DNA from: Methylocella silvestris BL2 | Lineage (GTDB): Bacteria > Pseudomonadota > Alphaproteobacteria > Rhizobiales > Beijerinckiaceae | Direction: 5' to 3' | Length of the DNA stretch: 64,000 nucleotides | Assembly (NCBI RefSeq): GCF_000021745.1 | Contig: NC_011666.1 | Span: 3,685,001 to 3,749,000, forward strand | Shown here: positions 18,634 through 57,752 of the stretch, in pieces | Position numbering within the stretch: the stretch's first letter is position 1 | Layout of the letters: each line of letters starts with the position of its first letter | The notes under the pieces: generated by a model | The model's database searches: none | The model's input: the letters and a program-made list of their open reading frames with translations, nothing else | What the model was told of the DNA's origin: nothing | Made by a program: the position numbers and the translations under genes

Positions 18634-20322
18634 ATGTCTAAGTCACTCAGGCGGACTGTCTCGTCGTATTCAAGAAGAGCGCGCCGTTATTCGCCCTCAA
18701 GGATCTCATTGGCGGTTGGTTTGGCGCTTTCAATCGGGTCGCTGGTCGCGCCAATTCAGGCGCAGGCGGCCAGCGGCCCGAAAGTGCAAACCAATAAGGG
18801 TCCGGTCCAGGGCTTCATCGCGAATGGGGTGGCAGAGTTCCTCGGCATTCCCTATGCCGCCCCCCCTGTCGGAGATCTGCGCTGGCGTCCGCCTCAGCCG
18901 CATGAGGTCTGGCAGAAAGCCTTGGATGCGAGGAATTTTGGTCCTATCTGCTTGCAGACCGCTTCCAACCCGTACTCTGGACCGGCCAACATGAACGAGG
19001 ACTGCCTGTTCCTCAACATTTTCACACCGGAAATCCACACGGGAACAAGGCAAAGGCTTCCGGTGATTGTCTATATCCATGGCGGCGGCAACAGCTCGGG
19101 CGAAAGCACTGGCTATGACGGAAGCAAGCTCGCCGGCCAGGGCCACACGGTTGTGGTCACCTTGAATTATCGCCTGGGCTTGCTTGGCGACATGGCCAAT
19201 CCAGCGATCGACGCCGAAGGCCATCCCTTCGGCAATTATGATATCCTGGACCAGCAGGCTGCCCTCAGATGGGTTCAGAAGAATATCATAAACTTCGGCG
19301 GCGATCCGAACAATATCACGCTTGCCGGCCAATCGGGCGGCTCTGCGGACACGGAAGCCAGCGTCATGTCGCCACTGGCAAAGGGTCTTCTGCAACGAGC
19401 AATTTTGGAAAGTCACGTCTACGAGCCGACGCCCTTAGCGAGCGCGGAGGCGCAGGGCGCCGCCTTTGCGGTTGCCGCCGGGTGCGGCGCCGGCGCATCG
19501 CCGGCGGTTGCAGCATGTCTTCGCGCTCTCCCTGCTTCGAAGATCTTTGCTCTCGATTCGGGACCCTACCATTCCGAAATCATTGGCGACGGGCAGGTCG
19601 TGCCGAACGCATCGTTCCGGACGTTGATCCAGCAGGGGCGTTTCAACCATGTGCCGGTGATGAGCGGAACGACAGAGGACGAGGAAACCTTCAGCCTTGC
19701 CGGGACCGAATATTCCGAAAACCCAAGGCATCCGTTCACCGCAGCCGATTATCAGAACATGGTCAATTCCTATGCTTCCGCCAGTTATCCTTCCGGAACG
19801 GCCGCCAAGCTGCAGGCGCTTTATCCTCTCAACGCTTTTGTCACGCCGGCCCTGGCGATGGACGCGATCGGCACAGATCCGTGGGCGTGCAAGCAAAGGG
19901 GAATTAATAGTTTGCTGGCCGACAAGGTGCCCGTCTACGCTTATGAATTCGACGATCGCACGGCGCCTTCCTACTACCCCACGATGCCAGGTCTCCAATT
20001 GCTGGCCTACCACACAGGCGACATACAGTATCTCTTCCCGCTCTACCACGGTAGCCCGTTGGGCATCGTGCATGAGCTGAATAGAAAGCAGGAGAAGCTG
20101 TCGGACGAGATGGTCGCGGCCTGGACGAACTTCGCTTGGACAGGAAATCCGAACGGCGTCGGCAACAGCCCCTGGCCGCGCTACAAGAACAGACCTTCAG
20201 CCGCTTCGGAGAGAGCTCCTGCGATTCTCTCGGAAAACATTCCGGCTTTGTCGACGTTCACGGACCATGAATTCTCGCAAACGCATAACTGCGACTTCTG
20301 GGATTCGGTCTCGCCATTCTAG
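18634..20322 (+). CDS. Secreted type-B carboxylesterase
   Basis: A 562-residue carboxylesterase/lipase family enzyme. A long basic N-terminus leads into a signal peptide ending near APIQAQA (residues 41-47). The family block EFLGIPYAAPPVGDLRW follows, then the oxyanion loop IHGGGNSSGE and the nucleophile elbow GQSGG with Ser234 (GESAG in most relatives). The catalytic His is His460 in YHTGDIQYLF. The strand SEDCLYLNIF-like block is NEDCLFLNIF. It should hydrolyse esters in the periplasm or outside; the substrate is unknown. Two broken relatives lie at 42968 and 53240. Confidence 0.9.
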   Translation: MSKSLRRTVSSYSRRARRYSPSRISLAVGLALSIGSLVAPIQAQAASGPKVQTNKGPVQGFIANGVAEFLGIPYAAPPVGDLRWRPPQPHEVWQKALDARNFGPICLQTASNPYSGPANMNEDCLFLNIFTPEIHTGTRQRLPVIVYIHGGGNSSGESTGYDGSKLAGQGHTVVVTLNYRLGLLGDMANPAIDAEGHPFGNYDILDQQAALRWVQKNIINFGGDPNNITLAGQSGGSADTEASVMSPLAKGLLQRAILESHVYEPTPLASAEAQGAAFAVAAGCGAGASPAVAACLRALPASKIFALDSGPYHSEIIGDGQVVPNASFRTLIQQGRFNHVPVMSGTTEDEETFSLAGTEYSENPRHPFTAADYQNMVNSYASASYPSGTAAKLQALYPLNAFVTPALAMDAIGTDPWACKQRGINSLLADKVPVYAYEFDDRTAPSYYPTMPGLQLLAYHTGDIQYLFPLYHGSPLGIVHELNRKQEKLSDEMVAAWTNFAWTGNPNGVGNSPWPRYKNRPSAASERAPAILSENIPALSTFTDHEFSQTHNCDFWDSVSPF

Positions 20323-42967: not shown

Positions 42968-43660
42968 CTACAAGGGATAGGTCAAGACAGAATCCCAGAG
43001 ATCACATTTATAGTTCGCTCTAAACTGCTTTTCGCTTTCCGAGCCATTGGGGATATCCTGTCTGAGGAACGTCGCCTCTCCCGATCGGGGAAATACCGGC
43101 CACCTGACGGCTCTCGGTCCGTTCGGGTCGCCGTTCTTCGCAAAAAGTGTCCACGCCGCCACCATTTGGTCGGACAAGGTAAGTTCGGCCCCCTCAAGTT
43201 CGCGCGGCAGCCCGGTGGTCTGGTCCAAATTCACTCCCAACTGGCCGCCGTGATACCCCGGAAACAGGAACTGGATGTCGGTGGTGTGGGATGCCAGAGG
43301 CTGGAAGCTGCCCGTGGGCGACATTGGATAGGGCATTTTGGGGAAGTAAAAGGGCGCCTTGGTATAGGTGAAGTCCCATCCATACGTCGGAACCTTGGCG
43401 GCCCATAATTTAAGGACGTGAAGACCACCGCATTTCTTCGGATCGCTCGCGACCCGGTTGTAGGCCAGTTCGGTATCGTTTCCATAGTTGCTGAGCGGAT
43501 ACTGAGCCAAAACGGCGCCAGCATTGGCGCCCCACGAGGCGCTCATGCCGGCCTCATATTGAGCCGGCGTCAGGGGCGCCTGCGGCGGGTCTCCACGACG
43601 AATATCTTGCAAGTCTCTTGATGGGTATGGAAACAGAAATCCGTTCTGGCTGTCATCTGG
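42968..43660 (-). pseudogene. Type-B carboxylesterase, C-terminal half
   Basis: The minus-strand frame has no in-frame ATG start and reads into the C-terminal third of a carboxylesterase. It starts near PLTPAQYEAGMSASWGANAG and includes ASHTTDIQFLFPGYHGGQLG (with the catalytic His), DQMVAAWTLFAKNGDPNGP and CDLWDSV at the end. These align with PFTAADYQ, YHTGDIQYLFPLYHG and CDFWDSV of the intact enzyme at 18634-20322. The serine elbow and all N-terminal parts are absent. It is the complement of the N-terminal half at 53240-54150. Confidence 0.85.
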
Positions 43661-44076
43661 CGCCTGTATGGGGAATCGCTCTCTCTGGCCGTCGCAGCCT
43701 ATATTGTCGGTCGGTACTCGGCTGTTGATGAGCGATCGCGAAGGATGAAGGGAGCACTCGATCGGCGACGGCTTGCGCGGGTCCTCGACTTCGTGGAGGC
43801 AAATCTCGGGCGGGAACTCGGCATTGTCGAACTAGCGGCTATCGCTCACCTGAGCTCAGGCCATTTCTCGGAAGCCTTTTGCCGCTCCGTGGGAATGTCC
43901 CGCATCGCTATATCTTAAGCCGACGGGTCGCCGTCGCGAAGCGTCTCCTCGCCGACGGAGAAATGTCCGTCGCCGAGGTCGCTTCCACGATGGGGTTCTC
44001 GAGTCAAAGCCACTTTGGTCGAATGTTTCGGCAGATCACCGGCACGACGCCAAAACGCTACCAGTCTTGCTCCTAA
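43650..44076 (+). pseudogene. AraC family regulator, C-terminal part, frameshifted
   Basis: The plus strand reads LYGESLSLAVAAYIVGRYSA, then LARVLDFVEANLGRELGIVE and LAAIAHLSSGHFSEAFCRSV, the first helix-turn-helix of an AraC DNA-binding domain. A frameshift at about 43895 is followed in another frame by HRYILSRRVAVAKRLLADGE and VASTMGFSSQSHFGRMFRQI, the second one. The N-terminal sensor half is missing: the reading starts at the same point (about 43650) where the esterase half on the other strand breaks off. Confidence 0.85.
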
Positions 44077-44126
44077 GTTGGTTCGTAGCCGCGTACTTCG
44101 CGTGTGAGAGGCAACCAATTGTTAAT

Positions 44127-45407
44127 TCATTCGGCGGGCGCCAGTTTTGCCGTTCCACCCACCATTTCATGTTCCTCGAACGGCTTCTCAGGATGCATCA
44201 TAAAGGCGCATGCCGCTCCGACGAGAAGTAATCCCATCGACATGAGGAACGGTAGAAACCAATTTGCCGTGACGTCGATCACAAACCCGGCGACCAGTGG
44301 GGACACGATCGCCGCAGCGGCGGAGCCGGTATTCATGAGCCCGGCAGCCGTCCCGGAATATTTCGGCGCAATATCCATGGGGATTGACCACATCGGGCCG
44401 ATGACCAATTCCGCGAAGAAGAAGCCCGCCGACAAGCAGAGCGCGACCAACGTGACGTCGTGGATGTAGAGCAGTGGCAGAAGCGATAGGAAGGCGCCGA
44501 GAAATCCTCCGATCGTGACGCTCAGCCGCGCAAGTCGAACATTGTTCGTGCGACGCAGAATGTGATCCGAGATGACTCCGCCGAGCGTGTCTCCAACGAC
44601 GCCCGCAAAAAACACACCCGACGCAAAAAGAGCGGAACTCTTGAGATCCAGGCCGAAATTGTTCTTGAAGAACAGCGGGAGCCAGTTGAGGTAAAGCCAA
44701 AGCGTCCAGCCATAGCAAAAATAAGTGAGCGTCACCGGCCACATCCGGGCCAGCAGAGGCTTCCACGGAATTTGAAGCTTGGCGCCCGGTTTGCGAACGG
44801 GCAGCTGCGCGAGTTCTTCCTCCGTGATGCCGGAGTGATCCTTCGGATCATTCCGAAAGTACCAAACCCAGACCAGCACCCACACCAGGCTGATGAGGCC
44901 GAGCAGGACAAAAGAGCCACGCCAGCTGAAGGCGATCACCAAGAGCGCGACGAAAGGCGGCGTGACCGCATTGCCGAGTCGGGCGAAAGCATGGGTCAGC
45001 CCTTGGGCGAAGCCTCGACGGCTCGGGGGCGTCCAATATTGCATGGCCCGGGTGGCCGTTGGGAAGGTTGCGCCCTCGCCGAAGCCAAGCAGTAGGCGCG
45101 CGAGGAACAATGTGAAGAGACCGTTGACGAGACCCGTCAGAATGGTCGCCACCGCCCAGATCAACCCGCATGCGAACAGCGTCCGACGCGCGCCGAAACG
45201 GTCTCCGACCCAGCCCCCGAAAACCTGAAAAACGAGGTAGGGATAGGCGAAGGCGGAGAACACGAGCCCGAGCTGCGTATTCGTGAGATTTAGCTCGCGC
45301 TGTATGGCGCCCGCAGCCGTGCCGATATTGACGCGATCGATGTAGGTTATGAAATACATGATACAGAGAAGCGCCAGAACGACATGCGTCGCCTTGAACT
45401 TTGGCAT
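44127..45407 (-). CDS. MFS transporter, anion:cation symporter type
   Basis: A 426-residue permease with 12 membrane helices of the ACS/glucarate-phthalate-like branch. Evident motifs are FITYIDRVNIGTAAGAIQRE in helix 1, FGGWVGDRFGARRTLFACGL (the MFS signature) and FGEGATFPTATRAMQYW. The ATG at 45407 is preceded by GGGAGGG; an in-frame GTG six bases upstream is less likely. It opens a minus-strand block in the hydroxyacid island and probably imports an organic acid for it. Confidence 0.9.
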   Translation of the reverse strand: MPKFKATHVVLALLCIMYFITYIDRVNIGTAAGAIQRELNLTNTQLGLVFSAFAYPYLVFQVFGGWVGDRFGARRTLFACGLIWAVATILTGLVNGLFTLFLARLLLGFGEGATFPTATRAMQYWTPPSRRGFAQGLTHAFARLGNAVTPPFVALLVIAFSWRGSFVLLGLISLVWVLVWVWYFRNDPKDHSGITEEELAQLPVRKPGAKLQIPWKPLLARMWPVTLTYFCYGWTLWLYLNWLPLFFKNNFGLDLKSSALFASGVFFAGVVGDTLGGVISDHILRRTNNVRLARLSVTIGGFLGAFLSLLPLLYIHDVTLVALCLSAGFFFAELVIGPMWSIPMDIAPKYSGTAAGLMNTGSAAAAIVSPLVAGFVIDVTANWFLPFLMSMGLLLVGAACAFMMHPEKPFEEHEMVGGTAKLAPAE

Positions 45408-45538
45408 CTTCACACCCTCCCGAATGTCTTCTTTTGGCCCACCGATCGTCTAAGCGGTTCTAGATTGGCGCCGCCTTTACGAGACTAATTTTATGTTTTT
45501 CAAAAGAGCGGACGGCCCGGTCTTTGAGCGCCGACGCA

Positions 45539-46321
45539 TCAAGCGTCCCGGGCGACAGTTACAGTCCCTACGCCGGCAAATGACGCTTCTGCGCTGCTGC
45601 CGGGAGCCAGACGCTCCATACAGGTGTAGGAGCCGGTGGTTACAAGATCACCGGCGCGGAGCGCCGCCCCAACGTCTAGGAGATCATTGGCCAGCCATAC
45701 GACAAGGTCGATGACGTCGCCGGCGGGATTGCCGCCGTCGCGGCTGATAATCATGCGATCGTCAACGGCGAGGCTGACGCTGGTGTTGATGAATGAGGGA
45801 TGGTCCGGCATAGGAACCCCGGAGCCGACCACCATGGCCCCATGCGACAGAAGGTCGGCGAGGAGAAGCTCGGGAGCGACCGTAGGCCAGTCGCGAAAGC
45901 GGCTGTCGATGATCTCGAACGCGACAACCACTTCGCTGATCGCGGTCAGGACTTCATCGCGCGCATAAGGACGCCCGATCGGCGGAAGGCCGGAGCGGAA
46001 GCGAAACGCCAATTCGGCTTCAAGGAGAAAGAGCCGGAAGGCGTCGCGCTCGAATTTGGCGCCGGAGGGATGCGTTCGATTTGCGAACAGAGGCGCGCGA
46101 GAGGCCGGAGCGTCGGCAGCTTTGCGTCCAACCTTCCAGCCCACAATAGGGCCAAGACGCCGGGCTAACGCGGATTGAACGCGATAAGCCTCCTCGCGAG
46201 AGGAAATCCGCGCATTGACGGGCAGCTCGCCTATGCTCGCGCCGGTTTCCTGAGCGTCGATCAGCAATGCCGCGAGAGCGGTCGCCTCATCGCATTCCAT
46301 CGCAGCCACTCGCGCAACCAT
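45539..46321 (-). CDS. 2-keto-4-pentenoate hydratase / FAH-family protein
   Basis: A 260-residue protein of the MhpD/fumarylacetoacetate-hydrolase superfamily. It has VGWKVGRKAADAP, EAELAFRF with the metal-ligand Glu pair, and VVVAFEIIDSRF with further ligands, then a LLSHGAMVVGSG block. Members hydrate 2-oxo-4-pentenoates or decarboxylate oxo-acids, using Mg or Mn. The start at 46321 follows GAGGA. It lies in the hydroxyacid island, where its substrate is not obvious; its neighbours suggest an oxo-acid. Confidence 0.85.
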   Translation of the reverse strand: MVARVAAMECDEATALAALLIDAQETGASIGELPVNARISSREEAYRVQSALARRLGPIVGWKVGRKAADAPASRAPLFANRTHPSGAKFERDAFRLFLLEAELAFRFRSGLPPIGRPYARDEVLTAISEVVVAFEIIDSRFRDWPTVAPELLLADLLSHGAMVVGSGVPMPDHPSFINTSVSLAVDDRMIISRDGGNPAGDVIDLVVWLANDLLDVGAALRAGDLVTTGSYTCMERLAPGSSAEASFAGVGTVTVARDA

Positions 46322-46359
46322 TTTTTCCTCACCGACAGCAGGTTTGCGCTGAATTGCGA

Positions 46360-47568
46360 TCAGCCCGCGGCAAGTTTGAGCAAAGGCGAGGCATTGGTCC
46401 CGTCGCGGCTTTCAAGCTCGGCCATGGCCGCCATTACGCCGCCTGCGCGGTGCGGGATTCCCGCCGCTGACAGACCCATCTCAACGCCGCTCAGGGCCGC
46501 CATAAGGACAAGCTCGTTGCATTGGCCAAGATGCCCGATGCGGAATACTTTTCCAGCCAGCTTGTTCAGCCCCGTTCCGAGCGACATATTGTATTTTTCG
46601 AGCACCACATTGCGGAAATGATCGGCGTCGTGACCGGGGGGCGTTAACACAGCCGTCAGGACCGGCGAATATTCGGAGGGCTCTTCACAGAGCACTTCGA
46701 GGCCCCAGGCGCGGACAGCCGCGCGCGTCGCGGCTGCGAGGCGATGGTGACGCTCAAACACCTGATCGAGACCTTCTTCCAGCAACATCGCGATCGCCTC
46801 GCGCAGCCCGTAAAGCAGGGTGGTCGCCGGAGTGTAGGGAAAGAAGCCCGCAGCGTTGGGTTTCAGCATCTCCTGCCAGTCCCAATAGGACCGCGGGAAT
46901 TTGTTGGTCTTTGACGCGGCGAGCGCCTTGTCGGAGATGGCCGTGAAGCCGAGGCCCGGCGGCAGCATCAAACCTTTCTGGGAGCAGCTAATGGTGACGT
47001 CGACGCCCCACTCGTCGTGGCGATAATCGACTGAACCGAGGGAGGAGATCGTATCGACAAGGAGCAAAGCCGGGTGGCCGGTCCTGTCGATCGCCGTGCG
47101 GATTTCGCCTATTCGGCTGGTGACCCCGGTCGAGGTTTCATTGTGGACGACCATCACGGCCTTGATCGCGTGGGAGCGATCTTCGGCCAGCTTCGCTTCG
47201 ATGGCGACGGGATCAGCGCCGCGGCGCCAGTCGCCCGGCATGAAGTCGGCGTCAAGGCCCCATTTCGCCGCCATCTGACGCCATAGGGTGGAGAAATGAC
47301 CGGTCTCGGCCATGAGCACCTTGTCGCCAGGCGACAAGGTGTTGACGATCGCGGCTTCCCAGGCGCCGGTTCCAGATGAGGGGTAAATGACGACCGGACC
47401 GGAGGTCTTGAAGACGCTTTTGCAGCCCGCCAGAACCTCTTCGCCAAGAAGCTGGAATTCCGGACCGCGATGATCGATGACCTGTTTGTTCATCGCCCGA
47501 AGCACTCTCTCGGGCACGGGGCTCGGCCCCGGAATCTGCAGGAAATGTTGCCCGTGGCGCTCTGTCAT
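46360..47568 (-). CDS. Class V aminotransferase, serine/aspartate-glyoxylate type
   Basis: A 402-residue PLP enzyme. The N-terminal FLQIPGPSPVPERVLRAM and the PLP lysine Lys198 in SCSQKGLMLPPGL are typical of serine-glyoxylate and aspartate-glyoxylate (BhcA-like) aminotransferases. So are HNETSTGV (about 142-149) and VDTISSLGSVDYRHDEWGVD. These turn glyoxylate into glycine. The start at MTERHG was preferred to an ATG two codons earlier; both are possible. The gene is divergent from the GntR regulator, with a perfect 14-bp palindrome between them. Confidence 0.88.
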   Translation of the reverse strand: MTERHGQHFLQIPGPSPVPERVLRAMNKQVIDHRGPEFQLLGEEVLAGCKSVFKTSGPVVIYPSSGTGAWEAAIVNTLSPGDKVLMAETGHFSTLWRQMAAKWGLDADFMPGDWRRGADPVAIEAKLAEDRSHAIKAVMVVHNETSTGVTSRIGEIRTAIDRTGHPALLLVDTISSLGSVDYRHDEWGVDVTISCSQKGLMLPPGLGFTAISDKALAASKTNKFPRSYWDWQEMLKPNAAGFFPYTPATTLLYGLREAIAMLLEEGLDQVFERHHRLAAATRAAVRAWGLEVLCEEPSEYSPVLTAVLTPPGHDADHFRNVVLEKYNMSLGTGLNKLAGKVFRIGHLGQCNELVLMAALSGVEMGLSAAGIPHRAGGVMAAMAELESRDGTNASPLLKLAAG

Positions 47569-47654
47569 TTCCATCCCCGTATGCAGCGGCCGGGATTGGC
47601 CCGGAATTCTCTTAACCCAGATTAGTGCATTAATTTTTTCATGATGCAATGAAT

Positions 47655-47668
47655 TTTTGAATTCAAAA
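47655..47668. promoter_or_regulatory. Candidate operator palindrome 1
   Basis: TTTTGAATTCAAAA is a perfect 14-bp palindrome in the 142-base space between the divergent aminotransferase and GntR genes. The inner 12 bases recur upstream of the FAD/Fe-S dehydrogenase at 48548-48559. This makes it a candidate binding site for the local GntR regulator. An adjacent TTCAT-N6-ATGAA pair at 47638-47653 might be part of the same region. Confidence 0.55.
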
Positions 47669-47710
47669 TACCGTCTCGACCCAACCGGGCAAACACGTTA
47701 TTTGATTCAT

Positions 47711-48490
47711 ATGGACTCAATGGATGGAGATGGGGGGAGGGCTCTTGCGCCCCCTGCGAGCGATGCCCGCCGGCCGGAAGACGGCGCCGACGCTTCTGCA
47801 TCGGGTCGGCCGGCGCATGCCGTATCATTGCATGGCGAAATTCTCGTGCGCCTGCGCGATTACATCGTCGAAGGCAATCTTGTCGGCGGAGCGCGCATTC
47901 CCGAGCGTCAGCTTTGCGAAATGTTCGGCATCTCCCGCACGCCGCTGCGTGAGGCGCTGAAAGTGCTGGCCTCCGAAGGGCTGGTTGATCTCCTGCCCAA
48001 CAGAGGCGCGCGGGTCCGCGAGCTGAGCGCCAAAAACCTCGTTGAGCTCTTCGACGTTATGGGCGGGCTCGAAGCTCTCGCCGGCCGTCTTGCCTGTGAA
48101 AACATTACTGGGGACGCCTTCGATGAAATCGAGCGGCTGCACCATGAAATGTATGGCTTTTATCTGCGCCGCGATCTGCACAGCTATTTCCAGTGCAACC
48201 AGGCCATCCATCAGAAGATCGCCGACGCCGCTCATAACTCCGTGCTCTCGGCCACCTATGCAAGCTTCTCGGATCGCCTAAGGCGGGTCCGGTTTTGCGC
48301 CAATCTCAGCCGGAAGCACGACAGATGGGGGGAGGCGATGCGCGAGCACGAGGCCATTCTCGACGCATTGCGCCGCCGCGCCGGCCCTGAACTGAGCGAC
48401 ATCCTCTTTCTGCATTTACGCAACAAGCAAGTCGCAGCCGCTGAACTCGGTCCGGAGCTGGCGCGCGCCGAAGGGGAGGCCAGGATTTAA
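47711..48490 (+). CDS. GntR family regulator with FCD domain
   Basis: A 259-residue regulator. Residues about 40-110 form the winged helix-turn-helix (VRLRDYIVEGNLVGGARIPE, then LCEMFGISRTPLREALKVLA). An FCD helical effector domain follows, with LHHEMYGFYLRRDLHSYFQC and NQAIHQKIADAAHNSVL providing metal- or ligand-binding His residues. The start is uncertain: I chose the ATG at 47711, since the TTG at 47657 lies inside a palindrome and no good ribosome-binding site distinguishes others. It most likely controls the surrounding catabolic genes in response to an organic acid. Confidence 0.88.
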   Translation: MDSMDGDGGRALAPPASDARRPEDGADASASGRPAHAVSLHGEILVRLRDYIVEGNLVGGARIPERQLCEMFGISRTPLREALKVLASEGLVDLLPNRGARVRELSAKNLVELFDVMGGLEALAGRLACENITGDAFDEIERLHHEMYGFYLRRDLHSYFQCNQAIHQKIADAAHNSVLSATYASFSDRLRRVRFCANLSRKHDRWGEAMREHEAILDALRRRAGPELSDILFLHLRNKQVAAAELGPELARAEGEARI

Positions 48491-48547
48491 GCGCTGCAGC
48501 GGCCAATCGCCTGATTTGAGTGCGTTTTGTGATGTGTTATTTTATGG

Positions 48548-48559
48548 TTTGAATTCAAA
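48548..48559. promoter_or_regulatory. Candidate operator palindrome 2
   Basis: TTTGAATTCAAA, a perfect 12-bp palindrome and the same core as the element at 47655-47668, lies 67 bases before the start of the FAD/Fe-S dehydrogenase. Its place in a promoter of the same island supports joint control. Confidence 0.55.
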
Positions 48560-48625
48560 TAAGGGCGCTGATAAGACTCCCGAAAAATACGCGGCGAAGA
48601 AATTAGCGGCAAAGGGAGCATCCAG

Positions 48626-51595
48626 ATGGTCGGGGCGACGCGCTCGGGATTCGAAGGACGGCTTCGCGCCGAGATCGCGGGCGACATTCTCTTCGACGCG
48701 TTCAGCCGCGGCCGCTACGCGACTGACGCATCGCATTACCAGATGATCCCGCTCGGCGTGGCCGTCCCCAAAACTGTCGAAGCGGCGGTCCGGGCCTTCG
48801 CGCTGGCGCGCGAGGAAGGCGTCCCCGTCACAGCGCGCGGCGGCGGCACCTCGCAATGCGGACAGACCATCAATCGCGGCCTGGTGATCGACGGCTCAAA
48901 ATATCTGCGCCGCATTCTCTCTCTCGACGTTGCCGGCCGCCGCTGCGTGGTCGAGCCGGGCATCGTGCTCGATGACCTGAACCGCCAGCTGAAACCACAC
49001 GGTCTGTGGTTTCCGGTCGATGTCTCGACAGCCTCGCGAGCGACGATCGGCGGCATGACCGCGAACAATTCCTGCGGCGGCCGCTCGCTGCGGTATGGCA
49101 CCACGCGGGACAATGTGATCTCGATCGAGGCGGTTCTGGCCGATGGCGCGGCGGCCCATTTCGGCGAGACCGCCACCGATCTTTCCGAACTGCGCGACGC
49201 CCATCTCAAACAATTCGCCGAGAAGCTGCTGGCCATCGGGGCGCGCGAGGCGGATGAAGTTGCAGAGCGCTTTCCAAAGGTCCAGCGGCGCGTCGGCGGC
49301 TATAATATCGACGCTCTCGATCCAGCGCGCGGCCGTGTCAACTTTGCCCACATTCTCGTCGGCTCGGAAGGCACGCTCGCCTATTCCACCGCGATCGAAC
49401 TGAAGCTTTCGCCGCTTCTGGGGCGCCGTGCGGTCGGAGTCTGTCATTTCGGCTCCTTCCACGCCGCGATGAACAGCGCCCAGCATATTGTCAAGCTGGA
49501 GCCAATCGCCGTCGAGCTCGTCGATGCGACCATGATCTCGCTGGCGAGCGAAATCCCGATGTTCCGGCCGACGCTCGACGCCGTCGTGCGCGGCGAGCCC
49601 CAGGCCCTGCTTCTGGTCGAATTCGCCGAAGACGACGCGGAGAATGTCCGGCGTCTGAAACAGCTGGGCGATCTGATGGGTGATCTCGGCTTCGGTTTCG
49701 ATCGCGAGGGCGCGCATTGGGGCGGCGTCGTCGAGACGCTCGATCCGTCTCTGCAGGCGGACATCACGGATCTGCGCACCTCCGGCCTCAATATCATGAT
49801 GTCGATGAAGGACGAGGCGAAGCCGATCTCTTTTGTTGAGGATTGCGCCGTTCCGCTGGAGCATCTTGCGGATTACACCGAGAAGCTCACGAGCGTCTTC
49901 GAGAAACACGGGACGCGCGGCACCTGGTACGCGCACGCCTCCGAAGGCTGTCTGCATGTGCGTCCGGTGCTCAATCTGAGGCTCGATAAAGACGTCAAGG
50001 CGATGCGGGCCATCGCCGAAGAGGCGTTCGCTCTCGTGCGCGCCTATAAGGGATCGCATTCAGGCGAACATGGCGACGGACTGGTGCGCAGCGAGTTCCA
50101 CGAGCCGATGTTCGGCCAGAGGCTGGTCAAAGCCTTCGAAGAGGTGAAGTCGGTTTTCGACCCGAAGGGAATCCTCAATCCGGGCAAGATCGTGCGATCG
50201 CCGCGTTTCGACGACCGCAGTCTGCTGCGCTACGCGCCGGGCTATGAGGTTCGCGACTTTGCCCCACAGCTCAGCTGGGCCGGATATCCCGGCGCCGTCG
50301 GCGGCCTGCAAGGCGCTGTCGAGATGTGCAACAACAATGGCGCCTGTCGAAAACTCGAGGGGGGCGCGATGTGCCCGTCCTATCGCGCCACACGTGACGA
50401 AAAGCATGTGACGCGCGGACGCGCCAACAGCCTGCGGCTGGCGCTTTCTGGTCAGCTTGGCGCCGACGCCTTCGCCTCCGACGCCATGGCCGAGACGATG
50501 AAGCTCTGCGTCTCGTGCAAAGCCTGCAAGCGCGAATGTCCGACGAGCGTCGACATGGCGCGCATGAAGATCGAGGTCATGGCGGCCCGGGCGCAAAAAC
50601 ATGGTTTTTCCCTGCGCGACAGGCTCATCGCCTATATGCCGCGCTATGCGCCCTTCGCAGCTCGCCTCGCGCCTTTGCTCAATCTGCGCAATCGCAGTCC
50701 CTTTCTGCGGCGGCTGATGGAAACGATCGTCGGCTTCAGCGCTCGCCGCGATCTGCCGATTTGGCGGCCCGATCGATTTTCAGCGCGCGCGCAGACGCTG
50801 GGGCCAGTTGACGGCCGAGAGCTTGTTCTTTGGGTGGACAGTTTCAACGCCGCTTTCGAGCCCGAAAATATCGAGGCGGCGATCACGACTTTGACCGCAG
50901 CCGGCTACCGCGTTCATATCGCCGGCCCGATTGACGGATCGGCGCGTCCGCTTTGCTGCGGCAGGACCTTTCTGTCGATTGGAAATGTTGCGGCGGCGCG
51001 CGCGGAAATGTCTCGCACGCTGACGGCCTTGCGTCCCTTCCTGGAGCGTGGCCTCGCCGTTGTCGGCCTGGAGCCGAGCTGTCTTTTTTCCTTCAGAGAC
51101 GAGGCGCTGGCTCTTCTGCCCGGTGAGGACGCGCGGCGCGTCGCGGCCCACGCAATGCTGTTCGAGGAATTCATCGTGTGCGAGGCGAAGGCGGGTCGAT
51201 TTCCGCCCGTCCTTGGTCCGGTCGGGAAGAAGGCGTTATTACATGGCCATTGTCATCAAAAGGCCTTCGGAGCCATGGGCGCGGTCGAGACCGCGCTGCG
51301 CCTCGTCCCCGGTCTTACGGTCGAGACGATCGAGTCAAGCTGCTGTGGCATGGCGGGGGCCTTTGGTTACCAGGCGGAGACGATGGACGTCTCTCTAGCC
51401 ATGGCGGAGCTGTCTTTGCTGCCGGCGGTCCGCAAGGCTGAACTCGACGCTCTTCTGGTGGCCGACGGAACATCCTGTCGTCATCAGATCAGGGACGGCG
51501 CGCCACGCAAGGCCGTGCATGTCGCGCGTCTCTTCGAGGCGAGCCTCAAGGCAGGGCAACGGACCGCAACCAAGGCGAAAGCGGCAGTTCAATGA
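48626..51595 (+). CDS. FAD-binding and Fe-S-binding 2-hydroxyacid dehydrogenase
   Basis: A 989-residue fusion of the YdiJ type. An FAD-binding type-4 domain (about 40-215) includes VPVTARGGGTSQCGQTINRG and TIGGMTANNSCGGRSLRYGT; an FAD-oxidase C-terminal domain follows to about 530. Two 4Fe-4S clusters come next (CNNNGACRKLEGGAMCPSY near 568 and CVSCKACKRECPT near 628), then two CCG domains (CCGRTFLS and SSCCGMAGAFGY). Relatives oxidise glycolate, D-lactate or D-2-hydroxyglutarate and feed the quinone pool. AAAGGGAGC fixes the start. Its stop overlaps the next gene by 4 bases. Confidence 0.93.
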   Translation: MVGATRSGFEGRLRAEIAGDILFDAFSRGRYATDASHYQMIPLGVAVPKTVEAAVRAFALAREEGVPVTARGGGTSQCGQTINRGLVIDGSKYLRRILSLDVAGRRCVVEPGIVLDDLNRQLKPHGLWFPVDVSTASRATIGGMTANNSCGGRSLRYGTTRDNVISIEAVLADGAAAHFGETATDLSELRDAHLKQFAEKLLAIGAREADEVAERFPKVQRRVGGYNIDALDPARGRVNFAHILVGSEGTLAYSTAIELKLSPLLGRRAVGVCHFGSFHAAMNSAQHIVKLEPIAVELVDATMISLASEIPMFRPTLDAVVRGEPQALLLVEFAEDDAENVRRLKQLGDLMGDLGFGFDREGAHWGGVVETLDPSLQADITDLRTSGLNIMMSMKDEAKPISFVEDCAVPLEHLADYTEKLTSVFEKHGTRGTWYAHASEGCLHVRPVLNLRLDKDVKAMRAIAEEAFALVRAYKGSHSGEHGDGLVRSEFHEPMFGQRLVKAFEEVKSVFDPKGILNPGKIVRSPRFDDRSLLRYAPGYEVRDFAPQLSWAGYPGAVGGLQGAVEMCNNNGACRKLEGGAMCPSYRATRDEKHVTRGRANSLRLALSGQLGADAFASDAMAETMKLCVSCKACKRECPTSVDMARMKIEVMAARAQKHGFSLRDRLIAYMPRYAPFAARLAPLLNLRNRSPFLRRLMETIVGFSARRDLPIWRPDRFSARAQTLGPVDGRELVLWVDSFNAAFEPENIEAAITTLTAAGYRVHIAGPIDGSARPLCCGRTFLSIGNVAAARAEMSRTLTALRPFLERGLAVVGLEPSCLFSFRDEALALLPGEDARRVAAHAMLFEEFIVCEAKAGRFPPVLGPVGKKALLHGHCHQKAFGAMGAVETALRLVPGLTVETIESSCCGMAGAFGYQAETMDVSLAMAELSLLPAVRKAELDALLVADGTSCRHQIRDGAPRKAVHVARLFEASLKAGQRTATKAKAAVQ

Positions 51596-52743
51596 CCGCC
51601 GAAATAGAACAAAAAGCCCTTGGCCCTTTCGCTGCGCTGATCGGCGCGCCGGACGGACGCAAGCGGCTGAACACGCCGTCGCTCATCCTAGATCTCGACG
51701 TTTTCGACGCGAATGTAGCCAGAATGCAGGCGATCTGCGACGCCAATGGCGTCAATCTGCGTCCGCACGCGAAAAGTCACAAAAGCTCCCGCATCGCGCA
51801 GGCGCAACGTGAGGCCGGCGCGATCGGCGTCTGCTGCGCCACTATCAACGAGGCGGAAGCGATGGCCGTGGCGGGCGTCGGCGGACTGCTGATCACCGCG
51901 CCTCTTGTCACCGACGTAAAGATTTCGCGCCTCTGCGATCTATGCGCGAGGGCGCCGGACACAATGGCGGTGATCGACAACGCCGATAACGCACTTGCCT
52001 TGTCTGCGGCCTTCGCCGGCCGGCCGGCGTTAAACGTTCTCGTCGATCTCGATATCGGCCATCACCGCACCGGCGCCGTTGATCCGGCGGCCGCTTTCAA
52101 ACTGGCGCGTATGATCGCCGCGACGCCCAATCTCACTTTGCAGGGCGTTCAGGCCTATGGCGGCCATTTTCAGCACATCCCTGACGCCGCGAAGCGCGGC
52201 GCGGCGGCGGCGCAGGGGCGCGAGCAGCTCAAAGCTCTCCTCGCCCTGATGCGCGACGCGCAGCTTGAGACCGGGATTGTCACCGGCGCTGGCACGGGCA
52301 CCCACGGACTCGACGGATCGTCCGGCGTCTTCACGGAAATTCAGGCGGGCTCCTATATTTTCATGGACGCCGAATATGCCACGATCAATTATGAAGGCGG
52401 CGATTGGCCCTTCGGCTTCTCCCTGTTCGTGCAGACCAGCGTTCTCAGCGCCAACCTTCCAACGCAGGTCACCACCGACGCCGGCACAAAATCCTTCGCC
52501 CTGAACGGGCCGCCGCCACGGATCGTCTCCGCTTCTCTACACGGCGCGGCTTACGGCTTTGCGGGCGACGAACACGGGCGCGTCATGCTGGAGCACGGCA
52601 TGGGTCGCCCGCAAATCGGCGAACGACTCGAATGCATCGTATCGCATTGCGATCCCACAGTGTGCCTCTACGACTACTTTGTCTGTGTGCGCGGGCAAAA
52701 GGTCGTCGATGTCTGGAAAATCGACGCGCGCGGGCGGGCATAG
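51592..52743 (+). CDS. DSD1-family PLP enzyme, beta-hydroxyaspartate aldolase-like
   Basis: A 383-residue alanine-racemase-fold enzyme of the D-threonine aldolase/D-serine dehydratase group. The PLP lysine is Lys61 in RPHAKSHK, and the C-terminal metal site is H352-C-D354. The Asp two residues after His matches aldolases, where dehydratases have Cys. YGGHFQHI and AGTGTHGLD are further family segments. A beta-hydroxyaspartate aldolase (BhcC) joins glyoxylate and glycine; the neighbouring aminotransferase and hydroxyacid dehydrogenase fit that role, but threonine-type aldolase activity is possible. It is translationally coupled to the dehydrogenase. Confidence 0.87.
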   Translation: MTAEIEQKALGPFAALIGAPDGRKRLNTPSLILDLDVFDANVARMQAICDANGVNLRPHAKSHKSSRIAQAQREAGAIGVCCATINEAEAMAVAGVGGLLITAPLVTDVKISRLCDLCARAPDTMAVIDNADNALALSAAFAGRPALNVLVDLDIGHHRTGAVDPAAAFKLARMIAATPNLTLQGVQAYGGHFQHIPDAAKRGAAAAQGREQLKALLALMRDAQLETGIVTGAGTGTHGLDGSSGVFTEIQAGSYIFMDAEYATINYEGGDWPFGFSLFVQTSVLSANLPTQVTTDAGTKSFALNGPPPRIVSASLHGAAYGFAGDEHGRVMLEHGMGRPQIGERLECIVSHCDPTVCLYDYFVCVRGQKVVDVWKIDARGRA

Positions 52744-53239
52744 AGAACGGCGACGGTCCGACGACGAGCGCGCATGTCACGCATACCCTCGGCAGCGCAG
52801 ACCACGTGCACTTGTCTGGGTCGCCAGACTTGCTGGACCCGCTTAGCATTCACCATCATCGACTCTCCGCCCTTCCAACGACGCTGCGCATCCCCGGAAC
52901 CTCGGCCGGCGCCGCCCGAGTGGCGCAATAGGCGGCGACGCCCTTCATCCGGGCGAATGCGGCGACCTTGTCGCGGAGTTCCGATCGGCCTTTCGCCGCG
53001 GCGGCGCGGCACAGCACATGCGTTTGCGACCTCAAGCGCCAAACTTCGGGGAGCAACCACGTTTCAGGGAAAAGACGAAGTCTACTTTCCGATTTTTGAG
53101 GGAATCCAAATCATATCAGGCGTGAAAAAACGATATCAACCTCGCATTGCACCGAGCCGTGATATTCCTAGCGCTGTCCAATTCTTGACGTCATCGCACG
53201 TGCGACGGTTGTGGAAAAGACTCGGGCGAATATAAGAAT
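52744..53239. other. Spacer without a supported gene
   Basis: About 500 bases follow the PLP enzyme. A minus-strand frame at 52856-53056 encodes 66 residues but has no ribosome-binding site and no known similarity. The AT-rich stretch near 53085-53250 may hold a former promoter of the esterase pseudogene. Confidence 0.4.
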
Positions 53240-54150
53240 TACTGCCCACGAACGCGAATGACGCAATACCCGTGGCGGACGAAGTAGAATTCCTTGGCGT
53301 TCCCTTCGCCACTCCGCCGCTCGGAAATCTTCGCTGGCGGCCGCCCCAGCCTCCGGCAAAGTCGACACAAGCGCTGAAGGCGAAAACGTTCGGCGGCACG
53401 TGCGTACAAAATCAGGCGGAGAGTTCGCCAAGCCCAGCCTGACCGAGGATTGTCTTTACCTCAACATATTTACGCCTAGCGACTATGCGGAGAAATCCCG
53501 GCCGCGACCCGTGATAGTGTGGTTCTACGGCGGCGGTCTCGTTGCTGGCGAAACAAACGACTACGATGGAAGCAAACTCGCGGGACAGGGCGACGTCGTT
53601 CTCGTGACGGTTAATTATCGGGTCGGAACGCTTGGTTTTTTCGCCCATCCACGCTTGACGCTGTAGGTCACGACCTCGGCAATTACGGCTTCACGGACCA
53701 ACAGTTCGCACTCAAATGGGTCCAGCGGAACATAGCCGGAGTCGGCGGTGATCCCCAGAAACATAACGATCTTCGGCCAGTCGGGCGGCGCGACGGCGGT
53801 GATGGGCGATCTTGTATCACCGACTGCGGCCGGCCGATTCCAGAGGGTGATCGTTGAGAGCGGCACACACATCATAACGACGCCGCTGGCGACGGGGGAA
53901 ACGCAAGGGCAGACCATTGCGTCGAAGGCCCGCTGCACATAATATCGCCACCTGCCTGCGTGCGCTCACGCCTCAACAGATCGGGGATCTTGGCCACCGC
54001 CGTCGAGCTATTACATTGTCGATGGCCACATCATAACGCAGCCGACCTATGAGGCATTCAAGAGCGGCCGCTTCAACCGCGTGCCGATCCTGACCGGCCT
54101 TGTGGCCGACGAGCAGGCGTTCTTCCTGCCGGAAATTTCCGCGATGTGAA
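53240..54150 (+). pseudogene. Type-B carboxylesterase, N-terminal half, frameshifted
   Basis: Successive frames read ADEVEFLGVPFATPPLGNLR, LTEDCLYLNIFTPSDY, VIVWFYGGGLVAGETNDYDG, GNYGFTDQQFALKWVQRNIA, FGQSGGATAVMGDLVSPTAA (serine elbow) and YEAFKSGRFNRVPILTGLVA followed by DEQAFFLPE. At least three frameshifts and stops separate them. The reading ends after what corresponds to about residue 350 of the intact enzyme at 18634-20322; the C-terminal third is missing here. That third is represented at 42968-43660. Confidence 0.88.
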
Positions 54151-54283
54151 TTCGGCCAGGCCGATCATTTTGCCCGACGTCAAACTAAGCGATCGATCTG
54201 TCGGAAAGCCGACAGACGCAACCTTGCCGAGCGTAATAGGTTTCAAGTTCGTCGAGCAATTCGCCCCTTCAGGGAGGCGGCTC

Positions 54284-54511
54284 ATGGACCCGGAAACCAT
54301 CGCCCTTTTGCAGGCGGAGTTTGAGCGCCGGATGACGCTGGTCCCTCTCTCTCAGCAGACCGATCAAGGGCGATTGGCGCTCGCCTACCACCTCGTTAGA
54401 CTGGCGGAGGACGGCGAGCGCGACCCCGAGCGCCTGATGCGGGCGGCGCTCTCTTGGCCGCGAGACCTACGCTGCGTCATCAGGGGAGGGCAACTTGCGT
54501 TCGAGACGTAA
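54284..54511 (+). CDS. Small conserved-looking protein, 75 residues
   Basis: It starts with MDPETIALLQAEFERRMTLV after a very strong GGGAGG ribosome-binding site. It is helical and charged, with PLSQQTDQGRLALAYHLVRL in the middle and a hydrophobic end (PRDLRCVIRGGQLAFET). I do not recognise a named family. The next ORF begins within its last codons, so the two may form a small operon. Confidence 0.55.
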   Translation: MDPETIALLQAEFERRMTLVPLSQQTDQGRLALAYHLVRLAEDGERDPERLMRAALSWPRDLRCVIRGGQLAFET

Positions 54512-54779
54512 ACTAAGCAGTTTTGAGCCGTTTTCCTCCGGCGCCGTGAAGCCGGGCCGCGAAGCGTCCGTGCAGTTGATTCGCTTTGACCAAAGCTTAA
54601 GGGAACAAGTCGATAGGGCTTACCAGGAATGGCAGGCTCATCTCCCCGCAGACGATGAAAGCCGCAATATGCCTCGGCGATTAGCAGGCGTGGGCTTCAG
54701 AGAGAGCATCATTAAGCCGGTCGACAAGCGGTTCATCGAACGCCTCACGAATTTAGGCATTCCGTTTGAATGGCTATGA
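54495..54779 (+). CDS. Hypothetical protein, 94 residues, TTG start
   Basis: It begins at a TTG behind GGGGAGGG and overlaps the previous gene by 17 bases. The N-terminus is basic (RSRRKLSSFEPFSS), then a helical acidic stretch follows (FDQSLREQVDRAYQEWQAHL). There is no recognised family and no signal peptide. The strong ribosome-binding site and the overlap argue for a real gene. Confidence 0.5.
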   Translation: MRSRRKLSSFEPFSSGAVKPGREASVQLIRFDQSLREQVDRAYQEWQAHLPADDESRNMPRRLAGVGFRESIIKPVDKRFIERLTNLGIPFEWL

Positions 54780-54811
54780 GGACGCCGCGACTCCGTTCAG
54801 AAGGAGAGAAA

Positions 54812-54904
54812 ATGACCACGGCCACTCCATTACAATTGGAGCGCGCTGCCCCCGAAGCCGCGTGCGTCGAGTTCATCGCCGAGACGGCGGCGGCCGGGGA
54901 GTGA
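54812..54904 (+). CDS. Very small ORF or gene remnant, 30 residues
   Basis: An ATG with an excellent AAGGAGAG site opens MTTATPLQLERAAPEAACVE and stops after 30 residues. A frame starting at the overlapping GTG (54901) continues for 33 more residues without stop (to about 55002), so one frameshifted gene is an alternative. No similarity is known. Confidence 0.35.
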   Translation: MTTATPLQLERAAPEAACVEFIAETAAAGE

Positions 54905-55107
54905 GGCTCAAGAACGGCGATCGCGAGAGCGAAAGCGGTCAGCTCAGCTGGATAGACGTTACGCCGGAAGCGGCGAACAGCGCGTCAAGCCAAGGAAATT
55001 GAGATTTTTGCCAATGGCAACTTTTCCGGGACACGAGCACGTTTTTGGCTTACAACTTATGATTGATTTTTCAATGCTGCTCGGCCGGAGATTGCCCGGA
55101 AGAAAAC

Positions 55108-55659: not shown

Positions 55660-56090
55660 TCTCCTTGATCGCTGAGAACGGGATCGAACTGGCGTGGGGC
55701 GGAGGAAGGGCGCGAATGCACTCGCACCGCTGACGCGTCCAAGCGCTAACGGCTAGAAACCTGACGTCAGTTTGAACCCTCGACGAAGGTAGAACAAATG
55801 GCGGACATAAAAGGACGCGTCACGTCCCTCTACCGGGCTACTCCCGACCATAGGCGATAAGCCCTTGGGATTCAGGTCAAGGTGTAGGCGCTGCTTTAAA
55901 GCAACAGACTAAGAAATGGCCTGATCTCGGAAAGGGCGCCAGCGCTGGTTTTCACCCGTGGAAGCCGAGGCCGCGGTAGCGGCGGACGATGGCCTTCAAT
56001 CATCACTTCCAATTTTACTAAAGCAAGGACTCGCAGGCCAACCTTGCTGCCGGACCAATCCTTCGGATCTCCTCATTCCGCTCTCGAAGG
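55660..56090. other. Spacer without a supported gene
   Basis: About 430 bases with no open frame that has both a ribosome-binding site and recognisable content. No tRNA or repeat structure was noticed. Confidence 0.4.
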
Positions 56091-56417
56091 CTAGATCAAT
56101 TGTCCGTCCGGACAGTCCGGCGAACAGATAAAGCAACGCTCCGGGCCCTTGAGCTTGGTCATAAGCTTTAAGGCGCCGTCGATCAGCTGCTGCTTGGCGG
56201 CAGCGTCGAAGCCCGGCGAAGAGGGATCACAGGGGAAATCGGTCCAAATGACCAACCACTCCAGCGGCGGCTTCGTCTCGATCTTCCACGATTTGACATG
56301 CTTTATCAAAACGTCCGTCATGTCGAATTCAGCAGGCATATTCCGTGCCGGCAGACCGGCCGCGAGTTCGGTTCGGAGACGCGAGGGATCGGGTGAGATT
56401 AAGGAAGGGCAAGTCAT
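56091..56417 (-). CDS. Hypothetical protein, 108 residues
   Basis: It starts at MTCPSLISPDPSRLRTELAA. The C-terminal half is a plausible folded domain (HVKSWKIETKPPLEWLVIWT, FDAAAKQQLIDGALKLMTKL) ending in a Cys-rich tail CFICSPDCPDGQLI that might bind metal. It shares its start point with a plus-strand ORF (CATG), so at most one may be real. The family is not recognised. Confidence 0.4.
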   Translation of the reverse strand: MTCPSLISPDPSRLRTELAAGLPARNMPAEFDMTDVLIKHVKSWKIETKPPLEWLVIWTDFPCDPSSPGFDAAAKQQLIDGALKLMTKLKGPERCFICSPDCPDGQLI

Positions 56418-56589
56418 GAGCCTTACTCTCGAAACGCGGCGGCCGACGATCGGCGGTGGCCGCGCTGAAATCCCCGAGCCACAGCTTTGCGATGAAAGCT
56501 TTGGCGCGTTTGACGCCATCGCCGCCGCCACGGTCCTGCTTTCCTCCGCCGCTTTGGTATCGGCCGTCCGGGCAGGCAAAAGCCTATGA
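56416..56589 (+). CDS. Hypothetical protein, 57 residues
   Basis: It begins MSLTLETRRPTIGGGRAEIP after a strong GGAAGGG site and ends with a hydrophobic stretch (FDAIAAATVLLSSAALVSAV) that may span the membrane. It is divergent from, and overlaps by two bases with, the minus-strand ORF at 56091-56417. The ribosome-binding site favours this one; no family is recognised. Confidence 0.4.
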   Translation: MSLTLETRRPTIGGGRAEIPEPQLCDESFGAFDAIAAATVLLSSAALVSAVRAGKSL

Positions 56590-57041: not shown

Positions 57042-57752
57042 ATGGCGGGATGCTGCGTAGACGAACATTGTGGCTCAGCTGGCGGAGGCGCGAGGGCTAA
57101 CAATTCCCCGGACTGGCGGCGCGCGCTGTGGATCGCGCTCGCAACTAACGCCCTGATGTTCTTCGCGGAGATCGCGGCAGGCGCTGCGGCGGGCTCCGCG
57201 TCGCTGCAAGCCGACGCCCTGGATTTTCTCGGCGACTCGGCGAACTACGCGATCAGCCTCGGCGTCGCCGGCCTTGGCCTGTCGTGGCGCGCCCGCGCCG
57301 CTCTTCTCAAAGGCTGGGCGCTGATCGTGTTTGGGCTGTGGGTCATCGGCTCGACTGTCTGGCATGCCGCCGCCGGCGCCTTGCCGCGCGCTGACGTCAT
57401 GGGCGTTGTGGGCTTCCTCGCCTTCGCGGCCAATGCCGGCGTCGCGTTAATGCTCTATCATTTTCGCGCCGGCGACGCCAATATGCGTTCGGTTTGGATT
57501 TGCTCGCGCAATGATGCCATCGGCAATGTGGCGGTGCTCGCGGCGGCCGCTGGCGTGTTCGGCACAGGCTTCGGCTGGCCCGATTTGATCGTCGCCGGCG
57601 TCATGGCCGCGCTCGGCGTGAGCGGCGGAGTGCAAATCGCGCGGCATGCTCATAGCGAGCTCGACGAAGACGGCGATTACTCCTCCAGCAGCGAGCAACG
57701 CCGCAAGAATGTAGCGCAACGTTTGGTCAGGCAGTTATCGGCCCCAAAATGA
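57042..57752 (+). CDS. Cation diffusion facilitator (CDF) family transporter
   Basis: A 236-residue membrane protein with about six helices. LQADALDFLGDSANYAIS in helix 2 and SRNDAIGNVAVLAAA in helix 5 occupy the places of the paired metal-binding motifs of CDF transporters. A short N-terminal Cys cluster (CCVDEHCGSAGG) and a His/Glu/Asp-rich tail (ARHAHSELDEDGDYSSSS) could bind metal. It probably exports Zn, Co or similar ions in exchange for protons. It is shorter than most CDFs because the usual cytoplasmic domain is nearly absent. Confidence 0.85.
   Translation: MAGCCVDEHCGSAGGGARANNSPDWRRALWIALATNALMFFAEIAAGAAAGSASLQADALDFLGDSANYAISLGVAGLGLSWRARAALLKGWALIVFGLWVIGSTVWHAAAGALPRADVMGVVGFLAFAANAGVALMLYHFRAGDANMRSVWICSRNDAIGNVAVLAAAAGVFGTGFGWPDLIVAGVMAALGVSGGVQIARHAHSELDEDGDYSSSSEQRRKNVAQRLVRQLSAPK

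Follow-up and report, generated by a model that had tools for sequence, protein, structure and literature searches.

Two complementary type-B carboxylesterase pieces flanking a catabolic gene cluster in Methylocella silvestris BL2, probably the halves of a gene split by an inversion of about 10.5 kb

The window, by which is meant the whole stretch of 64,000 nucleotides of Methylocella silvestris BL2 that was analysed, holds a cluster of catabolic genes enclosed between two pieces of a type-B carboxylesterase. The pieces are separated by about 10 kb, lie on opposite strands and have complementary ends (Table 1), with the strands and directions that the preliminary description of this DNA had expected for an inverted segment. 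An intact paralogous esterase in the same window served as the yardstick for residue numbering.

Table 1. Features of the esterase locus in window coordinates
Feature	Coordinates	Strand	Remarks
Intact paralogous esterase, yardstick	18634..20322	plus	562 aa, GQSGG present
C-terminal esterase piece (COesterase)	42968..43600	minus	open frame throughout; tblastn and PF00135
Left junction zone, esterase homology to AraC homology	43600..43660	none	
C-terminal AraC-family fragment	43649..44076	plus	frameshifted; stop 44074-44076
Catabolic gene cluster	44127..52743	both strands	Pfam/NCBIfam; NCBIfam matches below cut-offs
N-terminal esterase piece	about 53257..54137	plus	frameshifted, contains GQSGG
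Right junction zone, esterase homology to small-ORF array	54138..54172	none	
Repeated small-ORF array copy	54172..54923	plus	copies from G000:C1:3388967 onwards and in G008:C5

The minus-strand piece had been recognised from the outset as the C-terminal third of an esterase starting from 42968, and this was confirmed by its fully open frame, by a tblastn match of the intact enzyme at 43585-42986 (query residues 364-559, 37% identity, E 7.6e-29) and by a PF00135 score of 37.7 bits, above the curated cut-off of 27 bits. Its frame is open beyond 43660, and recognisable homology starts at a median position of 43588 among 42 homologues. The piece also has two additional stretches, in the neighbourhood of PMSPTG and LDQTTG. 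The piece is without the GQSGG motif, which we take to be the serine nucleophile motif of type-B carboxylesterases, and for this reason it is dead. For the N-terminal piece, the plus-strand location previously given (53240-54150) held good, the intact enzyme giving plus-strand tblastn matches at 53287-53439 (residues 68-118) and 53400-54128 (residues 107-355, E 3.2e-38), but the piece turned out to be frameshifted and not an open frame. In the numbering of the intact paralogue it covers residues 68 to about 355, those before about 68 being unrecognisable, and in our own reading of the frames it is made up of six segments with five frame changes. The search with PF00135 returned four segments, at 95, 48.1, 44.7 and 34.9 bits (cut-off 27), the last of which has an internal TAA, and GQSGG was found in the piece just as in the intact paralogue. 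The N-terminal piece is a decayed pseudogene, dead through its frameshifts; with the enzyme spread over two loci, one of them frameshifted, there is no single uninterrupted frame for the whole protein. The GC content of the N and C pieces (59.6 and 58.5%, respectively) tells little, because that of the intact paralogue is likewise 58.5%.

At the left junction, the AraC-family fragment had been described as cut at about 43650, at the very point where the esterase breaks off. Its homology does start there, corresponding to residue about 174 onwards in a homologue of 319 residues, and the fragment itself is frameshifted as well. A second AraC copy, 92% identical over 405 bp, lies outside the window (window 43675-44078 against G000:C1:3754941-3755343, minus strand, that is L105 5941-6343 or window-equivalent 69941-70343), the two copies being inverted repeats 26 kb apart. 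This second copy is also without its 5' half and has other neighbours, and its start lies some 26 bases further inward. The inverted AraC repeat is a possible substrate for an inversion. The N-terminal half of AraC was not found by tblastn with two homologues of about 37% identity, a search of limited sensitivity that covered the window and 16 kb to its right (80 kb), which is the same outcome as previously reported for the DNA beyond 54.15 kb; the second junction therefore does not confirm the flip. As to their later history, the two AraC copies have decayed differently from each other.

The right junction leads into a repeated small-ORF array, whose two ORFs in the window have no match in Pfam. 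In both other copies of this array, which lie in the same genome and in G008 (L086 4968-5637 and L087 6384-6988), an upstream member is present (69% alike over 216 bases), and it is missing at 54172. With a truncated flanking gene on either side, both zones look like breakpoints in the flanking genes as well as in the esterase. Among the inverted repeats listed, none places one arm at each junction, and no word of 6-9 bases is shared between 43590-43675 and 54120-54185 in either orientation. Elsewhere in the window, positions 56089-56466 and 57382-57677 are matched at 87% in G008:C39 and, inside a cation-efflux gene, at 93% by G000:C1:1621002-1621297.

The cluster between the pieces comprises, on the minus strand, genes for an MFS transporter, an FAA_hydrolase/hydratase-like protein and a BhcA-like aminotransferase and, on the plus strand, genes for a GntR/FCD regulator, an FAD/Fe-S dehydrogenase and a BhcC-like aldolase. 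The first five of these genes recur in the same order and on the same strands at G009:C1:620937-628264, in different surroundings, which shows that, as judged from gene order, they form a unit. In that genome the gene adjoining the unit is presumably PEP-carboxylase-like, and what we take to be permease and ethanolamine-ammonia-lyase-like genes are found a few genes away, while no esterase is present in the 19.9 kb read around the five-gene stretch. The preliminary description had held that relatives carrying the island in its present orientation without an esterase at its edges would speak against an inversion. Such an arrangement is partly what G009 displays, but in different surroundings, and because of this difference G009 does not show the ancestral orientation of the island at the present locus.

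Orthologues of the C half were sought in 99 genomes of relatives (E 1e-3) and in sets of 397 family (1e-25), 385 class (1e-32), 398 phylum (1e-32) and 397 order (1e-14) genomes, as well as in genome contigs and plasmids; the sets overlap, and each includes the window's own genome. No intact close orthologue was found in any of these collections. Over most of the C piece, matches reach at best 49% (G014 and G002) and 45% (G009 and L035), and strong matches are otherwise rare (six of the 397 family genomes at E 1e-25; G1317 and G1409, from another family, at about 1e-31). Searches with the left and right flanks (15 genomes of the genus) and with the island (16 genomes) likewise revealed no unsplit locus, and the best relative of the left flank (G011, L090) has no esterase in 16 kb. 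No relative was seen to carry both flanks, so that this search for the uninverted order has little power.

The end-to-end fit of the two pieces is close. Residues 355 and 364 of the intact paralogue bound a gap of 8 residues between them and, when the gap is measured on 42 homologues, its median is again 8 residues (range -8 to 31), in agreement with the earlier statement that the first piece begins about where the second ends. If two breakpoints are placed at random, with uniform probability between residues 60 and 500, the chance that the gap is no larger than 10 residues is 4.7%. In this genome PF00135 detects five full-length genes and, besides the two partial loci, a single further short match, which lies in a 278-codon frame; the full-length COesterase genes number 5, 9, 5, 6 and 10 in G000, G002, G009, G014 and G035, respectively. 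By a hand count over six genomes, 13 of 36 full-length genes have another full-length esterase at no more than 10 kb, the corresponding figure for this genome being none of five; G009 even has a divergent pair (G009:C1:4783941-4785461, minus strand, and 4786139-4787698, plus strand). A figure of 0.5% for the chance of two fragments within 10.6 kb was set aside because members of this family often lie close to one another. For the same reason closeness alone does not prove that the pieces were one gene, and it is therefore the end-to-end fit that bears most weight.

The relationship between the two pieces was further examined on 67 aligned homologues, of which 42 main-clade and 25 outgroup rows were sorted by hand from the loci; L044, a C-only match within a very long frame, was left out of alignments and trees, and two of 28 loci (L136 and L145) yielded no homologous frame of at least 400 codons. 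N has a mean identity of 48.8% to the main clade and of 41.1% to the outgroup, against 42.9 and 24.3%, respectively, for C. Within the main clade the N-C regression (r 0.82, residual sd 2.06) predicts from the value of N that C should have 45.0%, slightly above the observed value; this prediction is extrapolated, as no real main-clade protein has an N value under 54.6. Over the C region the outgroup proteins reach at most 35.0%, and the C piece stands well above them; over the N region the nearest outgroup protein has an identity of 47.9% to the main clade, barely under that of the N piece. In an AU test over 131 branches, 13 were accepted for N and 16 for C, with two common to both. Taken jointly, the halves fit best on the stem of the main clade, as they had in an earlier placement on 40 homologues that the present one supersedes. 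N is best placed on this stem (AU 0.976), a position that may reflect long-branch attraction of a decayed sequence, and C has there an AU value of 0.312, at 7.4 log units below its own best. When C is considered alone, it is best placed beside L035 or L036, both of which N rejects (AU 0.001 and 0.008). Matches of the halves to different subfamilies at different identities, named in the preliminary description as evidence against a single gene, are not clearly seen; yet the case is close, because C prefers a branch rejected by N and the N piece hardly exceeds the nearest outgroup protein.

The identity profiles of N and C over the same targets are uncorrelated (rho 0.17 for 42 main-clade targets, 0.16 for 35 targets). 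The median rho of real main-clade proteins is 0.70, and six of them degraded to the same identity retain mean values of 0.40-0.80, which counts against the pieces having been one gene. Among the 25 outgroup proteins rho extends from -0.48 to 0.46, a range so wide that a lineage on the stem could lack the correlation too, although this is not in itself support for one gene. A naive rank correlation of bit scores (rho 0.20, 41 proteins) is weak evidence, as outgroup proteins also scatter around zero. With regard to decay, departures at sites conserved in at least 90% amount to 20 of 109 in N and 11 of 54 in C, and at family-wide conserved sites to 12 of 87 and 1 of 20, respectively. Every frameshift falls in N, for which the chance is 0.067 if there are five of them and 0.20 if there are three.

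In our opinion these data are probably best explained by a single basal esterase gene that was broken by an inversion of about 10.5 kb, followed by decay and by loss at the second junction. The ancestral gene would have been one type-B carboxylesterase on the minus strand, a divergent basal relative of the clade expanded in the genus. In the numbering of the intact paralogue, the inversion would have cut it at about codons 355-364, with one end inside the esterase, at 43.60-43.66 kb, and the other at the far side, at 54.14-54.17 kb, and the flip would have carried the N-terminal two thirds together with the adjacent catabolic cluster to the far end and onto the plus strand, leaving the C-terminal third in place. 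The 5' part of AraC and one right-hand array member would have been lost at or before the rearrangement. The fragments themselves, with their strands, fit and decay, and the truncation of flanking genes at both junctions are observed; that the pieces share an origin, that a single inversion separated them, and when this happened relative to the loss of the AraC part are inferences of ours. The single gene split by inversion, as first proposed, retains in its favour the fit, the similar divergence and the shared placement; against it stand the N-terminal half of AraC, which was not found, and the uncorrelated profiles.

Alternatively, the pieces may derive from two esterase paralogues, once divergent neighbours, that were truncated independently and between which the catabolic cluster came to lie, the left one losing its 5' part together with that of AraC and the right one its 3' part at the start of the small-ORF array. 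Divergent esterase neighbours do exist, as the pair in G009 and the 13 of 36 genes at no more than 10 kb from another indicate, frameshifts are confined to one half, C prefers L035 and N rejects it, the identity profiles are uncorrelated, the N-terminal half of AraC was not found, and a head-to-head deletion would account for the left junction alone. Two paralogues would nevertheless require two truncations and a fit of 8 residues arising by chance (about 5%), in a genome where none of the five full-length genes has a neighbour at no more than 10 kb, and both halves are similarly diverged from the main clade; on balance we regard this origin as unlikely, though deserving serious attention. An insertion of the cluster into the esterase gene, with a later, small inversion that turned one half only, is very unlikely: the unit of five genes found in other surroundings in G009 speaks for it, but two events are required, no tRNA is present in the window, the ends have no repeats and no transposase or integrase is among the ten proteins scanned with Pfam. 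An assembly artefact is hardly credible, since the AraC inverted repeat (405 bp, 92%, 26 kb apart around the region), which could mislead an assembly, stays clear of the right junction, neither junction has repeats, the genome is a single contig and 99.98% complete, and the frameshifts point to old decay.

On a wider scale, the region from 43.6 to 70.3 kb might be a rearrangement hotspot in which the AraC copies and the small-ORF arrays drove several rearrangements in succession and of which the split esterase would be one of the scars, a proposal that we consider quite unlikely. For the inversion itself, the locus would be a small case of ordinary genome decay, in which a probable single rearrangement around a BhcA/BhcC-like catabolic cluster is bounded by two scars. 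It also has a practical side, since the open C piece might be annotated as a gene and the frameshifted N piece overlooked.

Both pieces match the family of type-B carboxylesterases (COesterase, PF00135), with paralogues in the same genus and in a few relatives. Compared with these paralogues, the copy described here is broken and distributed over two strands, and its highest aligned identity among the 67 homologues is 51.6% for the N piece and 51.4% for the C piece. A gene disrupted by a chromosomal inversion has one half at each end of the inverted segment, on opposite strands, and the two halves fit end to end. Unlike such genes, the present locus has no inverted repeat at its junctions, and no reciprocal partner was found at its second junction; like them, it has its esterase halves on opposite strands, at the ends of the segment and with an end-to-end fit.
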